Shown here piece by piece: positions 42,640 through 48,291 of a stretch of 64,000 nt of DNA (the stretch's first letter is position 1; the number at the start of each line of letters is the position of its first letter). The notes under the pieces are model-generated. The model did no database searches. It was not told the origin of the DNA and saw only the letters and a list, made by a program, of their open reading frames with translations. A program made the translations under genes and the position numbers. The stretch is from NCBI RefSeq assembly GCF_013374095.1, contig NZ_AP022672.1, positions 3,303,501 through 3,367,500 of the forward strand, written 5' to 3'. Source of the DNA: Sphingomonas sp. HMP6 (lineage in GTDB: Bacteria > Pseudomonadota > Alphaproteobacteria > Sphingomonadales > Sphingomonadaceae).

Positions 42640-44898
42640 ATGTCAGAAGATTCAAACGTCCAATTTTCCGAGCGCGAGGCGCTGCTGTTCCATTCGGAGG
42701 GGCGGCCCGGCAAGATCGAGATCATCGCGTCCAAGCCGATGGCGACGCAGCGCGACTTGGCGCTCGCGTATTCGCCCGGCGTCGCGGTGCCGGTCCTCGC
42801 GATCGCTGCCGACCCGAGCCTTGCTTATGATTACACCGCCAAGGGCAATCTCGTCGCGGTCATCTCCAACGGCACCGCGATCCTCGGCCTGGGCAATCTC
42901 GGCGCGCTTGCGTCGAAGCCGGTGATGGAGGGCAAGGCGGTGCTGTTCAAACGCTTCGCCGATGTCGATGCGATCGATATCGAGCTGAAGACCGAGGATG
43001 CCGACCGGCTGATCGACGCGATCGAGCTGATGGAGCCGAGCTTCGGCGGCATCAATCTGGAGGACATCAAGTCCCCCGAATGCTTCATCATCGAACAGGC
43101 GCTGCGCGCACGGATGAACATCCCCGTGTTCCATGACGATCAGCACGGTACCGCGATCATTTGCGCGGCCGGCCTGATCAACGCGCTGTTCCTGACCGGG
43201 CGCGACATCAAGGACACGCGGATCGTCATGAACGGCGCGGGCGCGGCGGCAATCGCTTGCGCCGAGCTGATCAAGGCGCTGGGCCTGCCAGCCGACCAGC
43301 TTACCATGGTCGACCGCACCGGCATCATCTATCAGGGTCGCGAGGGCGTGAACCAGTGGCAATCGGCGCATGCGGTCAACACCACCAAGCGCACGCTGAC
43401 CGAAGCACTCGATGGGGCCGACGTGTTCATCGGCCTTTCGGCGGCGGGCGCGCTGCCCGCGTCGGATCTGATGAAGATGGCACCGAAGCCGATCATCTTT
43501 GCGATGGCCAATCCCGATCCAGAGATCACGCCGCCCGAGGCACGCGCGGCGCGCCCCGACGCGATCATCGCGACCGGGCGGTCGGACTATCCGAACCAGG
43601 TCAACAATGTGCTCGGCTTCCCGTTCATCTTCCGCGGTGCGCTCGACGTGCGGGCGACGACGATCAACGACGAGATGAAGATCGCCGCCGCCAATGCGCT
43701 GGCGGCGCTCGCGCGCCAGCAAGTGCCCGAGGAAGTCGCGGTCGCCTACGGCGTGCGCCACACCTTCGGCCCGGAATATATCATTCCGGCACCATTTGAT
43801 CCGCGGCTGATGGAGATCGTGCCGGTCGCGGTCGCCAAGGCCGCGATGGATTCGGGCGTTGCCACCAAGCCGATCCTCGATCTCGAAGCCTATCGCCAGC
43901 AATTGAAAGCGCGGCTCAACCCGACGACGTCGGTCCTCACGCTTGCGTATGAGGGTGCCCGCGCGCACCCCAAGCGCGTGCTGTTTGCCGAAGGCGAAGA
44001 GGAAGTCGTGCTCCGCGCCGCGATCGCGTTCAAGGACGGCGGCTATGGCACGCCGGTGCTGGTCGGGCGTGACGACGTGCCCGATCGGCTGCGCGCACTG
44101 GGCGTTACCGATCCCGAAAGCTATGAACTCCACAACAGCCGCAACTCCCCGCTCGTCCCGCGCATGGTCGATTTCCTCTACAGTCGCCTGCAGCGGCGCG
44201 GCTATTTGCGGCGCGATTGCGAGCGGATGATCAACCAGGATCGCAACATCTTCGGCGCGGTGATGCTGCAGCTCGGCGAAGCCGACACGATGATCACCGG
44301 CATCACGCGCACCTATGCGCACACGATGCGCGAGATTCGCAAGGTGATCGATCCCGAGCCCAGCCGCACCCCGTTCGGCATCCATTTGATGGTCGGACAG
44401 ACGCACACCGTGTTCATGGCCGACACCACGATCAACGAACGCCCTAATGCCGAAGAACTCGCCGACATTGCCGAGGGCACGGCGCTGGTCGCTAAGCGCA
44501 TGGGGCACGAACCGCGTGTCGCGTTCCTCAGCTACTCGACCTTTGGCAATCCCGAGGGCAATTGGCTCGACGACATCCGCGCCGCAGTGAAGGTGCTCGA
44601 TGCGCGCAAGGTCGGCTTCGAATATGAAGGCGAAATGGCCCCCGACGTCGCGCTCAACCCCAAGCAACTCGCCAATTATCCGTTCGCGCGGCTGTCGGGT
44701 CCGGCGAACGTGCTGATCATGCCAGGGCTGCAATCGGCCAATATCTCGGCCAAGTTGCTGCGCGAACTCGGCGGGGATGCGGTCATCGGTCCAATGCTGA
44801 TCGGCATGGAAAAGAGCGTCCAGATCGCCCCGATGACGAGCACGGCGAGCGAGTTGGTGACGCTCGCGGTGCTGGCGGCGGGGGGAATCGCGCGCTGA
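42640..44898 (+). CDS. maeB: NADP-dependent malic enzyme (malic-PTA fusion)
   Basis: 752 residues. The N-terminal malic enzyme domain (about 1-430) has YSPGVAVPV, FHDDQHGTAII and the NADP fold RIVMNGAGAAAIACAEL, and decarboxylates malate to pyruvate with NADPH formation. The C-terminal domain (about 430-750; RVLFAEGEEEVVLRAAI ... FLSYSTFGNPEG) is homologous to phosphate acetyltransferase and in MaeB proteins serves as an acetyl-CoA-sensing regulatory domain. The length matches the hybrid family. The gene appears monocistronic, divergent from mutS. Confidence 0.97.
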   Translation: MSEDSNVQFSEREALLFHSEGRPGKIEIIASKPMATQRDLALAYSPGVAVPVLAIAADPSLAYDYTAKGNLVAVISNGTAILGLGNLGALASKPVMEGKAVLFKRFADVDAIDIELKTEDADRLIDAIELMEPSFGGINLEDIKSPECFIIEQALRARMNIPVFHDDQHGTAIICAAGLINALFLTGRDIKDTRIVMNGAGAAAIACAELIKALGLPADQLTMVDRTGIIYQGREGVNQWQSAHAVNTTKRTLTEALDGADVFIGLSAAGALPASDLMKMAPKPIIFAMANPDPEITPPEARAARPDAIIATGRSDYPNQVNNVLGFPFIFRGALDVRATTINDEMKIAAANALAALARQQVPEEVAVAYGVRHTFGPEYIIPAPFDPRLMEIVPVAVAKAAMDSGVATKPILDLEAYRQQLKARLNPTTSVLTLAYEGARAHPKRVLFAEGEEEVVLRAAIAFKDGGYGTPVLVGRDDVPDRLRALGVTDPESYELHNSRNSPLVPRMVDFLYSRLQRRGYLRRDCERMINQDRNIFGAVMLQLGEADTMITGITRTYAHTMREIRKVIDPEPSRTPFGIHLMVGQTHTVFMADTTINERPNAEELADIAEGTALVAKRMGHEPRVAFLSYSTFGNPEGNWLDDIRAAVKVLDARKVGFEYEGEMAPDVALNPKQLANYPFARLSGPANVLIMPGLQSANISAKLLRELGGDAVIGPMLIGMEKSVQIAPMTSTASELVTLAVLAAGGIAR

Positions 44899-44970
44899 GC
44901 TTTGATCTATCGACACTATCTAAATCTACGTTTCTTGCTGATCATCTCCCTGCAGGATATATCGCGTTCC

Positions 44971-46551
44971 ATGGGGTGGTTCGACCGACTGCAGACTTTT
45001 ATGACGCGCGGTACGGACCAGCTTTGGGGCTCCGGCCCGCTGTTGCTGCACATCGCATCGGACGGGCTAATCGCGGTGGCATATTTCGTCATCCCGTTTG
45101 GAATTTTGAGGTTCGTCAGGCACCGCGATGGCCTTGAATCGGGGCAGCGTTCGGCCGCCATCTCGTTCGCTGCGTTCATCGTCTTGTGCGGTGTTACCCA
45201 TGTCGCCAGCATCCTGACGCTGTGGTATCCGCTTTACGTTGCCGAAGGCTGGCTGAAGGCGGCGACGGCAGCTGCTGCGGTCATGTCGGCGGTCCGGATG
45301 CTGCGGGTCGTTCCGCTACTCGTGAGCTTACCCTCGCCCAAGAAGCTACAAGAGGAAATCGACCAGCATCGGGTCACCTTGGCCGAGCTTAGCGCAGCCC
45401 GCGCCGAACTCGTGCTGCGCGTGCGCGCCACCGAAGACGAGTTGTACGAGGTTGAGCGAAACTTCGCGCAGACCGACAGCCTGCTCGAGGCGGTGATCAA
45501 TTCCATTCCCGGGTTGATTTACGCGAAGGATCTTACGGGCCGCGTAACGATGGCCAACCGGACCACGCTCGAATTCATCGGAAAACCGTGGTCGGCGGTG
45601 CAGGGGCACACCGATCTGGACTTTCTGGACGACAAGCATCGGGCCGCGACGGTCATGGGATATGATCAGCGGGCGTTGGAGACCGGTCGCGCGCATCAAG
45701 TCGAGGAAGTTTTCGATCATCCCACCAAGGGGACCCGGATTTTCCTTTCGAGCAGGCGTCCGTTGCACGATTTGTCCGGGGTCGTGCGCGGCATCGTAGG
45801 GATGTCGCTCGATATTACGGATAGGAAGCACGTGGAGGCGCAGCTCAATCAGACGTCACGCGTGGCTGCGATGGGCGATATGGCAAGCGCATTGGCACAC
45901 GAACTTAATCAACCGCTCGGCGCGATTGCGATGTATCTGGAGGGCGTCAAGATCGCGCTGCAACGCGAGACGCCCGCACATCCAGCGCTGAAGCCGGTCG
46001 AGCTTGCGCGCGAACAATCGTTGCGCGCCGGCGACATCATTCGCCGCTTGCGCGCATTCGTTTCGGGCGGCGACAAGATCAGGCGGGCCGAAAGCGTGGC
46101 AGACGTAGTGGACGATGCGTGCCGTCTGGCGTTGCTTGGTTCGGACGACGCCAATATTCAGACCGTCATCGTGCATGAATCACGCGACATCTTTGCCGTG
46201 ATGGACAAGATCGAAATTCAGCAGGTCGTCGTCAATCTCGTCCGCAACGCAGTCGAATCGACCCCTGCGCACGGCCGAAACAAGATCATCGTCCGCACCG
46301 GCCAGGATGGTCCGACGAACGCCTGTGTCTGGGTCGAGGATGCCGGCTCGGGCTTTACTGAGGAGACCCGCGCCATCCTGTTCGAACCGTTCAAGAGCAC
46401 CAAGGGGACCAAGGGAATGGGCGTCGGCCTGTCCTTGTGCCGAACGATCGTCGAATCCCATGGCGGCACCATCCGCGGTGAAAACAATCGACACGTCGGC
46501 GCGACTTTTTCGTTTTCGCTGCCGCTGTCGACGCAGGACGAGGAAGCGTGA
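44971..46551 (+). CDS. Histidine kinase with ethylene-receptor-like membrane sensor
   Basis: 526 residues. Three membrane helices (about 24-48, 60-82, 88-110) match the ethylene-binding domain of plant ETR1: SDGLIAVAYFVIPFGIL and FAAFIVLCGVTHVASI. Asp31, Tyr38, Ile41, Pro42, Ile70, Cys73 and His77 correspond to ETR1 D25, Y32, I35, P36, I62, C65 and H69, the copper and ethylene site. A coiled linker (about 118-165), a PAS domain (about 165-290; NSIPGLIYAKDLTGRVTMAN), HisKA with His310 (SALAHELNQPLGAIAMYL) and an HATPase domain (NLVRNAVES, DAGSGF, GVGLSLCRTIVE) follow. The stop overlaps the start of a receiver gene. Ethylene sensing is inferred from residue identity; other small ligands or copper are possible. 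Confidence 0.88.
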   Translation: MGWFDRLQTFMTRGTDQLWGSGPLLLHIASDGLIAVAYFVIPFGILRFVRHRDGLESGQRSAAISFAAFIVLCGVTHVASILTLWYPLYVAEGWLKAATAAAAVMSAVRMLRVVPLLVSLPSPKKLQEEIDQHRVTLAELSAARAELVLRVRATEDELYEVERNFAQTDSLLEAVINSIPGLIYAKDLTGRVTMANRTTLEFIGKPWSAVQGHTDLDFLDDKHRAATVMGYDQRALETGRAHQVEEVFDHPTKGTRIFLSSRRPLHDLSGVVRGIVGMSLDITDRKHVEAQLNQTSRVAAMGDMASALAHELNQPLGAIAMYLEGVKIALQRETPAHPALKPVELAREQSLRAGDIIRRLRAFVSGGDKIRRAESVADVVDDACRLALLGSDDANIQTVIVHESRDIFAVMDKIEIQQVVVNLVRNAVESTPAHGRNKIIVRTGQDGPTNACVWVEDAGSGFTEETRAILFEPFKSTKGTKGMGVGLSLCRTIVESHGGTIRGENNRHVGATFSFSLPLSTQDEEA

Positions 46552-46910
46552 TGCCCGACACCGCAATCTATGTCGTTGATGACGATGAGCCGACGCTTCA
46601 GTCGTTATGCTATGTGTTGGAGATCATGGGATACAGCGTCACCGGTTTCGGATCGTCCGCCGCTTTTCTTGATCGCTGGCCCGACTTGCCTGGCGGGATT
46701 TTGATCTCCGATATCCGGATGCCGGGCCTGGACGGGATTTCATTGACTCGGCGCTTGCGGGAACTGGGGGCTTCGTTCCCGATCATTCTTGTGTCCGGTC
46801 ACACCGATGCGATGATCCGGCGCGATGCGGTCGAAGCGGGGGCGGCGATCGTTCTCGAAAAGCCGTTCGAAATTCAGTTGCTCATCGCCGAGCTTGAACG
46901 CCTGAGGTAA
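46551..46910 (+). CDS. Single-domain response regulator (FixJ-type receiver)
   Basis: 119 residues, consisting of a receiver domain only. Acidic pocket VVDDDEP at the N-terminus, phospho-acceptor Asp54 in LISDIRMPG, switch residue Ser in ILVSGHTD and conserved Lys in LEKPFE. It resembles the receiver half of FixJ/TodT regulators but ends without a LuxR-type DNA-binding domain, so the output must be protein-protein or phosphotransfer. Its ATG overlaps the kinase TGA, which makes the two an almost certain cognate pair. Confidence 0.92.
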   Translation: MPDTAIYVVDDDEPTLQSLCYVLEIMGYSVTGFGSSAAFLDRWPDLPGGILISDIRMPGLDGISLTRRLRELGASFPIILVSGHTDAMIRRDAVEAGAAIVLEKPFEIQLLIAELERLR

Positions 46911-46995
46911 GCCCAGACGCGCGCAGCGAACCTTTCTGCTGGATCGCTCGTTCAGGCGCGGCGCGGGGTGATGCCGCGCGGGTTAGGGGTCCATG

Positions 46996-48291
46996 ATGCC
47001 AGACGTCACTGCGGTACTCGATCATTACGATATCCTTCTGCGGCCCGATCCGGCGCGCACCGTTGTGCGGCCGTTCGGGCTCGAATACCCCGAGAGATTC
47101 CGTGTTGCCGGGCATAGCCGCGTTCAGGCGATCATCGATCGGGTCTTGTCGCTGAATGAAAACGCGCTCGCCGCCGAACTGGTGCAGATTGTGCAGTCGC
47201 TCGACGAACGGCACCGCGACGTCGATGCCATGCTGCTCCGGCGCTATGATGATATTGCCGCCAGCCTGCCTGCGCCACTGGCCACGCGCGAGGACCAGCG
47301 CCGTCTCATCGGCGCCTATTTCAGCGAGGAATTCTCCTACGAAGCGGCCGCGCTGTTCAACCCCAGCGCTGTCCTTGCCCCTGACCAATCGAATGCGCCC
47401 GACGGCGGCGTGCGCTTCGTTCTTTCGCTGCGCGGTATCGGCGAAGGGCATGTCTCCTCGGTCGCATTTCGGACCGGCAGCTGGACCCCTGGGCAAGCGT
47501 TCGCGCTGGATCCCCCCAGCCACGTCGCGGTACCGCCGATCATCGATGGGAATAGCGTCGCTGCCGGCGCGGTCGTCCGCCTTCACTGCGGCGGCGCACA
47601 TGAGATTTCGGAGACGGTGCTGTTCCCGATGCTGCCGAGCCAGCACCAGGGGATCGAGGATGTTCGTATGGTGCTCTTTACCGAAGACGATGGCTCGACG
47701 ATGTATCACGCCACCTATACCGCGTTCAGTGGCGCGGATGCACGGCCCGAGTTGCTCTCCGGCAAAGATTTTCACAGCTTCGAAATGCGTGCGCTGACGG
47801 GCGATGCGGCGGGGGCCAAGGGCATGGCGCTGTTCCCGCGCCGCATCGGCGGGCAGTATGTCATGCTCGGCCGGCAGGATAGCGAGAGCATCTGGCTGCA
47901 CCGCTCCGACGACATTCTGCATTGGGAGGGCGGGGGCAAGATCGTGTCGCCGCGCTATCCGTGGGAGTTCGTCCAAATGGGCAATTGCGGGTCGCCGATC
48001 GAGGTCGATGAGGGCTGGCTGGTGTTTACCCACGGGGTCGGGACGGTGCGCAATTACTGCGTCGGCGCGTGCCTGCTCGATAAGGATGATCCGTCGAAAC
48101 TGCTCGCGCGCACGCCCGAGCCGATCCTGCGGCCGAGTCCCGGTGAGCGCGACGGCTATGTCCCCAACGTCGTTTACAGTTGCGGCGCGCTCGCGGTCGG
48201 GCGCGATGTTCTGCTGCCGTTCGGGGTGGCGGACAATTTTACGGGGTTTGCCTCCACGACGGTCGATCGACTGCTCGCGGTGATGGAATAG
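46996..48291 (+). CDS. Glycoside hydrolase family 130 protein
   Basis: About 431 residues. LRPDPARTVVRPF at the N-terminus, FNPSAVLAPDQ, VRFVLSLRGIGEGHVSSVAFRTG and the later KDFHSFEMRALTGDAAGAKGMALFPRRIGGQYVMLGRQD with GNCGSPIEVDEGWLVFTHGVG are GH130 segments. The family contains mannoside phosphorylases and beta-1,2-mannosidases acting on beta-mannosides of glycans. No signal peptide is visible, so it is probably cytoplasmic. No neighbouring glycan genes identify the substrate. ATG 46996 suits the AGGGG ribosome-binding site better than the adjacent ATG at 46993. Confidence 0.85.
   Translation: MPDVTAVLDHYDILLRPDPARTVVRPFGLEYPERFRVAGHSRVQAIIDRVLSLNENALAAELVQIVQSLDERHRDVDAMLLRRYDDIAASLPAPLATREDQRRLIGAYFSEEFSYEAAALFNPSAVLAPDQSNAPDGGVRFVLSLRGIGEGHVSSVAFRTGSWTPGQAFALDPPSHVAVPPIIDGNSVAAGAVVRLHCGGAHEISETVLFPMLPSQHQGIEDVRMVLFTEDDGSTMYHATYTAFSGADARPELLSGKDFHSFEMRALTGDAAGAKGMALFPRRIGGQYVMLGRQDSESIWLHRSDDILHWEGGGKIVSPRYPWEFVQMGNCGSPIEVDEGWLVFTHGVGTVRNYCVGACLLDKDDPSKLLARTPEPILRPSPGERDGYVPNVVYSCGALAVGRDVLLPFGVADNFTGFASTTVDRLLAVME

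Follow-up and report, generated by a model that had tools for sequence, protein, structure and literature searches.

Genes and domains at the locus

We analysed a gene pair in a 64,000-nucleotide stretch of DNA from Sphingomonas sp. HMP6, the whole of which is called the window here. The first-pass annotation had placed at 44971..46910 an ethylene-receptor-like histidine kinase with a PAS domain and a kinase core, coupled to a receiver that has no DNA-binding domain. Both open reading frames are confirmed at these coordinates (Table 1), and Pfam matches bear out the architecture. Specifically, ETR1_N (PF25487) matches kinase residues 24-119 with an E-value of 6e-28 and a score of 97.4 bits (cut-off 27); PAS_4, HisKA and HATPase_c are above cut-off in the kinase, and Response_reg is above cut-off in the separate, overlapping 119-aa receiver frame. 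The ETR1_N profile has no match in any of 14 control genomes. The kinase stop and the receiver start overlap in TGATG; these are two genes and not one hybrid. The kinase contains H310, the expected phospho-accepting residue, and the receiver keeps D10-D12, D54, S82 and K104. The nearest NCBIfam families are FixL for the kinase (214.9 of 850 bits) and FixJ for the receiver (108.1 of 255 bits), both short of the curated equivalog cut-off.

Table 1. Features of the kinase/receiver locus and its edges, in window positions
Feature	Position	Strand	Basis
Ethylene-receptor-like sensor histidine kinase	44971..46551	+	ORF from ATG, 526 aa
Receiver-only FixJ-like response regulator	46551..46910	+	ORF from ATG, 119 aa, without output domain
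Ethylene-binding-type membrane domain, three helices, residues about 23-120	45037..45330	+	ETR1_N, AlphaFold2 helices, site residues
PHGxC-LW-P motif remnant, residues 12-21 (T R G T D Q L W G S)	45004..45033	+	Alignment
PAS domain, residues 169-290	45475..45840	+	PAS_4, E 4e-18 at 177-286
FixL-like HisKA + HATPase core, residues 301-520, expected phospho-accepting H310	45871..46530	+	Profile matches
maeB (malic enzyme with PTA-like domain), left edge of variable slot	42640..44898	+	Gene-order comparison
GH130-family gene, right edge of variable slot	46993..48291	+	Gene-order comparison

The annotation singled out the receiver as an orphan output, but such a partner is not odd, because many members of the family have a fused receiver or a short receiver-only gene next door, and AzoEtr1, the ethylene receptor of Azospirillum brasilense, has one as well (AzoRR-etr1). 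Among 58 sphingomonad-family loci, a count that leaves out the window's own locus (L002) and L031, broken in two, the receiver is fused to the kinase in 33 and encoded next door, with no more than 165 aa, in 15; in the other 10 no receiver is seen, which is not the same as absence because some loci are short. Of 81 loci from named records, a set that shares at least five genomes with the first, 28 have the fused form, 18 a neighbour within the 165-aa limit and 7 a longer neighbour, and in 28 no receiver is seen. A receiver without an output domain is thus common in this ethylene-receptor family. In L031 (G007), the gene for the ethylene-binding domain (EBD) is split across two overlapping open reading frames and is apparently broken. 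Behind a sensor and PAS domain close to those of the window's clade, P0080 carries an HWE/HisKA_2-type kinase core, and next to L063 and L068 lies a receiver of another type; in these three, an exchange of outputs seems to have left the sensor in place.

Two other identities for the receiver were considered and set aside. It is not a truncated FixJ-type regulator: the 82 bases between it and the GH130 gene leave no room for a helix-turn-helix domain, the receiver is 119 aa in S. psychrolutea and in a related Sphingomonadales MAG as well, and AzoRR-etr1 is likewise receiver-only. An SdrG-type FAT GUY receiver of the general stress response is unlikely, since that motif does not fit the receiver's end in an informal comparison. 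SdrG takes part in a relay in the general stress response (PMC5898713). That the pair might feed the PhyR relay is only a thought.

Ethylene-site residues and predicted fold

The seven ETR1 residues that the annotation had listed as important for ethylene are all retained, read directly as D31, Y38, I41, P42, I70, C73 and H77, and K96, the equivalent of ETR1 K91, is also present. The ETR1 letters used for this comparison (D25, Y32, I35, P36, I62, C65, H69 and K91) come from what we take to be the ETR1 sequence. The further claim of identical spacing holds inside each helix (an offset of +6 in helix 1 and +8 in helix 2) and fails across the loop between helices 1 and 2, because this loop is two residues longer in the window kinase. 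The retention of all eight key residues is by itself weak evidence: if changes were placed at random in residues 28-128, all eight would escape with a probability of about 0.095.

Of the seven ETR1 residues, D25, I35, P36, I62, C65 and H69 are named in PMC6586836. In ETR1, copper is held by C65 and H69, and ethylene binding is proposed to be passed on via D25 and a conserved lysine (PMC13012798, PMC11819568); spectroscopy, as summarised in PMC13012798, supports a low-coordinate copper site with C65 and H69. Only L101 and P0031 carry D31 to N among the 237 aligned domains described below, and both change K96 as well (to R and M); just one further row, P0091, has a substitution at K96. This natural covariation fits the proposed D25-K91 contact of ETR1.

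The hydropathy of the sensor has three peaks, fitting three transmembrane helices. An AlphaFold2 model of residues 1-160, built with 80 aligned domains, places three long helices at residues 21-51, 57-82 and 89-119 and one more helix at 123-159, with a mean pLDDT of 92.6 and weaker values in the first 20 residues (block means 74 and 63). Structure prediction thus gives the three long membrane helices at high confidence. This model is a guide only, because for the ETR1 membrane domain the AlphaFold predictions agree incompletely with distances measured by spin labels (PMC13012798). In a fold search with the sensor model, none of 278 matches reached E <= 0.001 (best 0.16), and the sole match of the EBD profile among PDB sequences had an E-value of 0.53. 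These results agree with the statement in PMC13012798 that the ethylene-binding domain is without a solved structure.

Divergence of the sensor from its family

We aligned 237 sensor domains, comprising the window sensor, 139 loci, 96 database proteins and ETR1. H13 is found in 218 of them (9 gaps), C16 in 214 (10 gaps), C73 in 231 and H77 in 236, and all eight functional residues are kept in 218. The N-terminal motif P-H-G-x-C, a regularity observed in this alignment and not a published criterion, is complete in 208 of the 237, a frequency inflated in the 80 loci from a contig scan for relatives of the sensor domain (the best 80 of 439 stretches) because the retrieval patterns included this motif. 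C16 is present in 79 of 81 named loci, a figure inflated by the same motif-based retrieval, and the N-terminal cysteine is present in 49 of the 58 sphingomonad loci found by ETR1_N, with one gap.

The window sensor is changed at 8 of the 37 positions conserved at 85% or more, and the median among the 237 rows is 1. PHGxC is absent from it in this alignment: its N-terminus reads T12, R13, G14, D16 and S21, with P12, H13, C16 and P21 replaced. Database protein P0001 has the same N-terminus and differs at 2 of 526 residues, and is flagged as the window's own protein and so may not be independent. P0002, which is 83% identical and comes from another source, shares P12T, L17Q, L23P, D54G and S103A with the window; therefore sequencing error does not account for the divergence of the sensor. 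P0004 (81% identical) keeps PHGxC and has lost Y38 and P42, so its ethylene site appears to be eroding by another route.

Six other sphingomonad EBD kinases (L051, L053, L054, L055, L059 and L060) have the copper-ligand cysteine replaced by G or D and the N-terminal cysteine by S. HisKA and HATPase are detected in all six and a receiver in five, and these are probably ethylene-blind relatives. The PHGxC cysteine was also considered as a partner of C73, by asking in 226 of the 237 rows (the 11 dropped being ETR1, P0001 and gapped rows) whether site residues are lost together with it. It changes five times on the tree, and a mean of two of five independent pairs differ in the site likewise, too few for significance.

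Rate of change and selection

We compared lineage-specific changes in the window kinase with those in three sisters by a Tajima-type count, for which P0011, P0013 and P0014 served as outgroup and had to agree in two of three; the p values are nominal. In the sensor, the window has 25 changes against 2 in P0005 (p 6e-6), 26 against 3 in P0006 (p 1.5e-5) and 25 against 1 in P0003 (p 8e-7). The corresponding counts, in the same order, are 8 v 4, 6 v 6 and 4 v 3 in the kinase domain and 17 v 7, 18 v 10 and 15 v 9 in the linker and PAS domain, none of them significant. The contrast between sensor and kinase gives Fisher p values of 0.06, 0.011 and 0.023. The sensors of P0002 and P0004 are also fast, each in all three comparisons, and the control sensor, that of P0003, is not fast against P0005 and P0006. 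Measured over 117 positions from the majority ancestor of five sisters, the window has 34 changes, P0002 25 and P0004 18; the counts for L062 (7) and L065 (2) are low by construction because both helped to define the ancestor.

Within residues 28-128, family-conserved positions are changed less often than others (3/29 vs 19/61, p 0.037). In residues 1-27, the counts are 5/8 at conserved positions vs 7/19 at others (p 0.40), and therefore the conserved positions of the N-terminus are not protected. Pairwise dN/dS among the window, S. psychrolutea and the MAG, which is blind to episodic selection and for which several dS values lie near or past saturation, is 0.10-0.13 for the kinase part, 0.10-0.19 for the receiver and 0.13-0.20 for the whole kinase gene, with 0.03-0.04 for maeB, 0.10-0.12 for GH130 and 0.19-0.22 for PAS across all pairs. 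Because the whole-gene values are well below 1, the kinase gene is not a pseudogene and is under purifying selection. The helices give 0.18-0.26 in pairs that include the window vs 0.10 between the sisters, and the first 27 residues give 0.75 against S. psychrolutea and 0.29 against the MAG, noisy values from 27 codons. The window sensor is thus looser or shifting on this branch while the gene stays under purifying selection.

Neighbourhood, distribution and a second ethylene-domain kinase

The order maeB, kinase, receiver, GH130, aspartyl protease is common to the window, S. psychrolutea (G527) and the MAG (G358), as are flanks of mutS and glnD on one side and SDR, acyl-CoA dehydrogenase, SDR and MFS genes on the other. 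Across these three, the neighbours are 87-98% identical, the receiver 77-82% and the kinase 75-77% (77% between window and S. psychrolutea, 75% between window and MAG). The slot between maeB and GH130 (44899-46992) holds a TPR-like gene on the opposite strand in G327 and a PEP-CTERM-type gene in G318, both typed by eye from open reading frames. Third-position GC is 0.75 in the kinase and 0.70 in the receiver vs 0.77-0.84 in the nine neighbours measured. The pair was likely gained in a variable slot. A plasmid origin was rejected: with the whole kinase as tblastn query, 635 plasmid records matched and none covered 80% of the kinase, and among the 60 matches listed the alignment begins beyond the sensor, from residue 154 onwards. 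A plasmid search with the P0093 sensor gave 19 records, all below 60% identity to that query. Records from the window's own or very near genomes may be left out of these plasmid searches.

In a sample of the family, 30 of 298 genomes have ETR1_N, and in a sample of the genus 32 of 201; both counts take in the own genome. Kinases that match the window kinase at E <= 1e-80 are rare in the genus, occurring in 6 of 295 genomes (own included, with the five best candidates scored per genome). Besides the own genome, S. psychrolutea and the MAG, these six are G427, with 52% identity over the first 294 residues, G378 with 49% and G438 with 40%. The own genome encodes two ETR1_N proteins, the window kinase and L001 (C1:1944717-1945007, at 1.94 Mb), an EBD-HisKA-HATPase-receiver hybrid in which no PAS domain was found and PHGxC is intact. 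S. psychrolutea and the MAG (87% complete) carry the window-type EBD gene only, with the motif intact, and G378 has two EBD genes with PHGxC in both. In the own genome nothing matched TIGR01274, the ACC-deaminase family, and control genomes gave sub-cut-off matches only, so this search had no positive control. Among the matches listed from open-licence literature, no title refers to a Sphingomonas ethylene receptor.

Interpretation

We consider the pair to be, probably, a working two-component system of the bacterial ethylene-receptor kind, with the layout of AzoEtr1 and AzoRR-etr1. Judged by its residues, the window sensor would likely bind ethylene, less certainly so than the sensors of its sisters. 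For this system we infer copper and ethylene binding, the direction of the response and the target of the receiver. The three-helix membrane domain would be expected to hold Cu(I) via C73 and H77, and D31 and K96 would link the copper site to helix 3. If the system follows the pattern of AzoEtr1, SynEtr1 and ETR1, bound ethylene would lower autophosphorylation of H310 and, in turn, phosphotransfer to the receiver's D54. For bacterial receptors, inhibition of the kinase by ethylene is proposed on indirect evidence or prediction (PMC11819568). Because it has no DNA-binding part, the receiver would act through contact with another protein or through a relay, and the PAS domain may supply a second, cytoplasmic input.

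The role that the annotation suggested, sensing of plant ethylene, is hypothetical. Several observations count against a simple transfer of function. PHGxC is lost, the sensor has more lineage-specific changes than those of its sisters while the kinase does not, and a second, more canonical ethylene-domain kinase is encoded in the same genome. Owing to this divergence, the retention of the seven residues says less about ethylene binding than might be supposed. A less likely reading is that the receptor has been caught mid-change, with its copper site kept and its N-terminal motif and helix 3 rebuilt; affinity or ligand would then be altered, or signalling would be independent of ethylene, and the second receptor would cover ethylene. 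Outright decay, in which the sensor no longer binds ethylene and the kinase works via its PAS domain or constitutively, with the second canonical EBD kinase present, seems to us rather unlikely. Rapid change of the sensor without rapid change of the kinase, the missing PHGxC and the high N-terminal dN/dS against S. psychrolutea (lower against the MAG, and from 27 codons only) all favour it, as do the outright loss of C73 in some other sphingomonad EBD proteins and the presence of a second EBD hybrid in the own genome when two sister genomes have the window-type gene only, motif intact. However, all eight functional residues are kept, helix dN/dS is well under 1 and conserved helix positions are still protected. 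The argument from redundancy rests on one genome, with one of the sister genomes 87% complete, and G378 keeps the motif in both of its EBD genes.

Re-tuning of the sensor under positive selection, toward another small alkene, copper loading or affinity, is improbable. It would account for the many changes seen by eye in the N-terminus and helix 3 (V102A, S103A, A105M, T106S, G108V, L109R and V110M) next to unchanged copper-site residues, but pairwise dN/dS nowhere exceeds 1 and relaxed constraint accounts for the same pattern. That the protein is just another FixL-like PAS kinase, with a membrane domain that serves only as an anchor, is hardly credible: although the kinase core is nearest to FixL, ETR1_N scores far above its cut-off and every ligand-site residue is kept.

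Sphingomonas is a genus common on plants, and an AzoEtr1-like pair is now placed in it. New here are the sensor divergence, the fast branch, the variable slot and the second EBD kinase in the same genome. The window sensor with its changed N-terminus and helix 3, the intact sisters in the same gene order and the second receptor of the own genome form a natural comparison set, and comparing the three could reveal what ethylene binding requires of the domain besides the seven residues.

Comparison with known systems

In the literature consulted, bacterial ethylene receptors have been tested in few species, namely Synechocystis and A. brasilense, and putative receptors of other proteobacteria are already in print (PMC11819568, PMC7700396). 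AzoEtr1 of A. brasilense, a root bacterium, binds ethylene, and either ethylene or disruption of AzoEtr1 lowers biofilm formation and root colonisation (PMC11819568). At its locus (L061), a 525-aa kinase is followed by a 135-aa receiver that overlaps the kinase stop, and the sensor has the same eight site residues as the window (D35, Y42, I45, P46, I72, C75, H79 and K98). Because its architecture, an EBD-PAS-HisKA-HATPase kinase with an overlapping receiver-only gene, matches the published AzoEtr1/AzoRR-etr1, the window pair is an AzoEtr1-type two-component system by layout, a further member of a kind already known.

The two systems differ in several respects. The AzoEtr1 kinase is about 30% identical to the window kinase over the match, its loop between helices 1 and 2 has the ETR1 length, two residues shorter than that of the window, its PHGxC is intact whereas that of the window is lost, and its upstream genes are different (PMC11819568). 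In a quick tree of 90 sensor domains, in which 32 of 87 inner branches, deeper forks included, are open and the plant row is a very long branch, the window sensor falls in a 17-row clade (SH-aLRT 97) whose named members are Sphingomonas, Sphingomonadales, Brevundimonas and Caulobacterales, and the EBDs of AzoEtr1 and L001 fall outside it; AzoEtr1 does not group with the window sensor as an ortholog in this tree. L001 has the same membrane domain and site residues as the window kinase but no PAS domain, a fused receiver and an intact PHGxC.

Plant ETR1 shares the three-helix copper/ethylene domain with the seven residues and K91. It differs in its GAF domain and its mainly kinase-independent signalling (PMC6586836, PMC11819568), and its residues 4 and 6 form inter-chain disulfides (PMC6586836) where most aligned bacterial domains have PHGxC. 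FixL and FixJ are the nearest curated families for the kinase core and the receiver, but FixL has another sensor domain and the window receiver is without the DNA-binding part of FixJ. SynEtr1 of Synechocystis, compared by description, is likewise an ethylene receptor in which a histidine kinase signals to a response regulator; it is also a light receptor and its regulator activates transcription of a small RNA (PMC11819568), whereas the window pair has a PAS domain and a receiver only.
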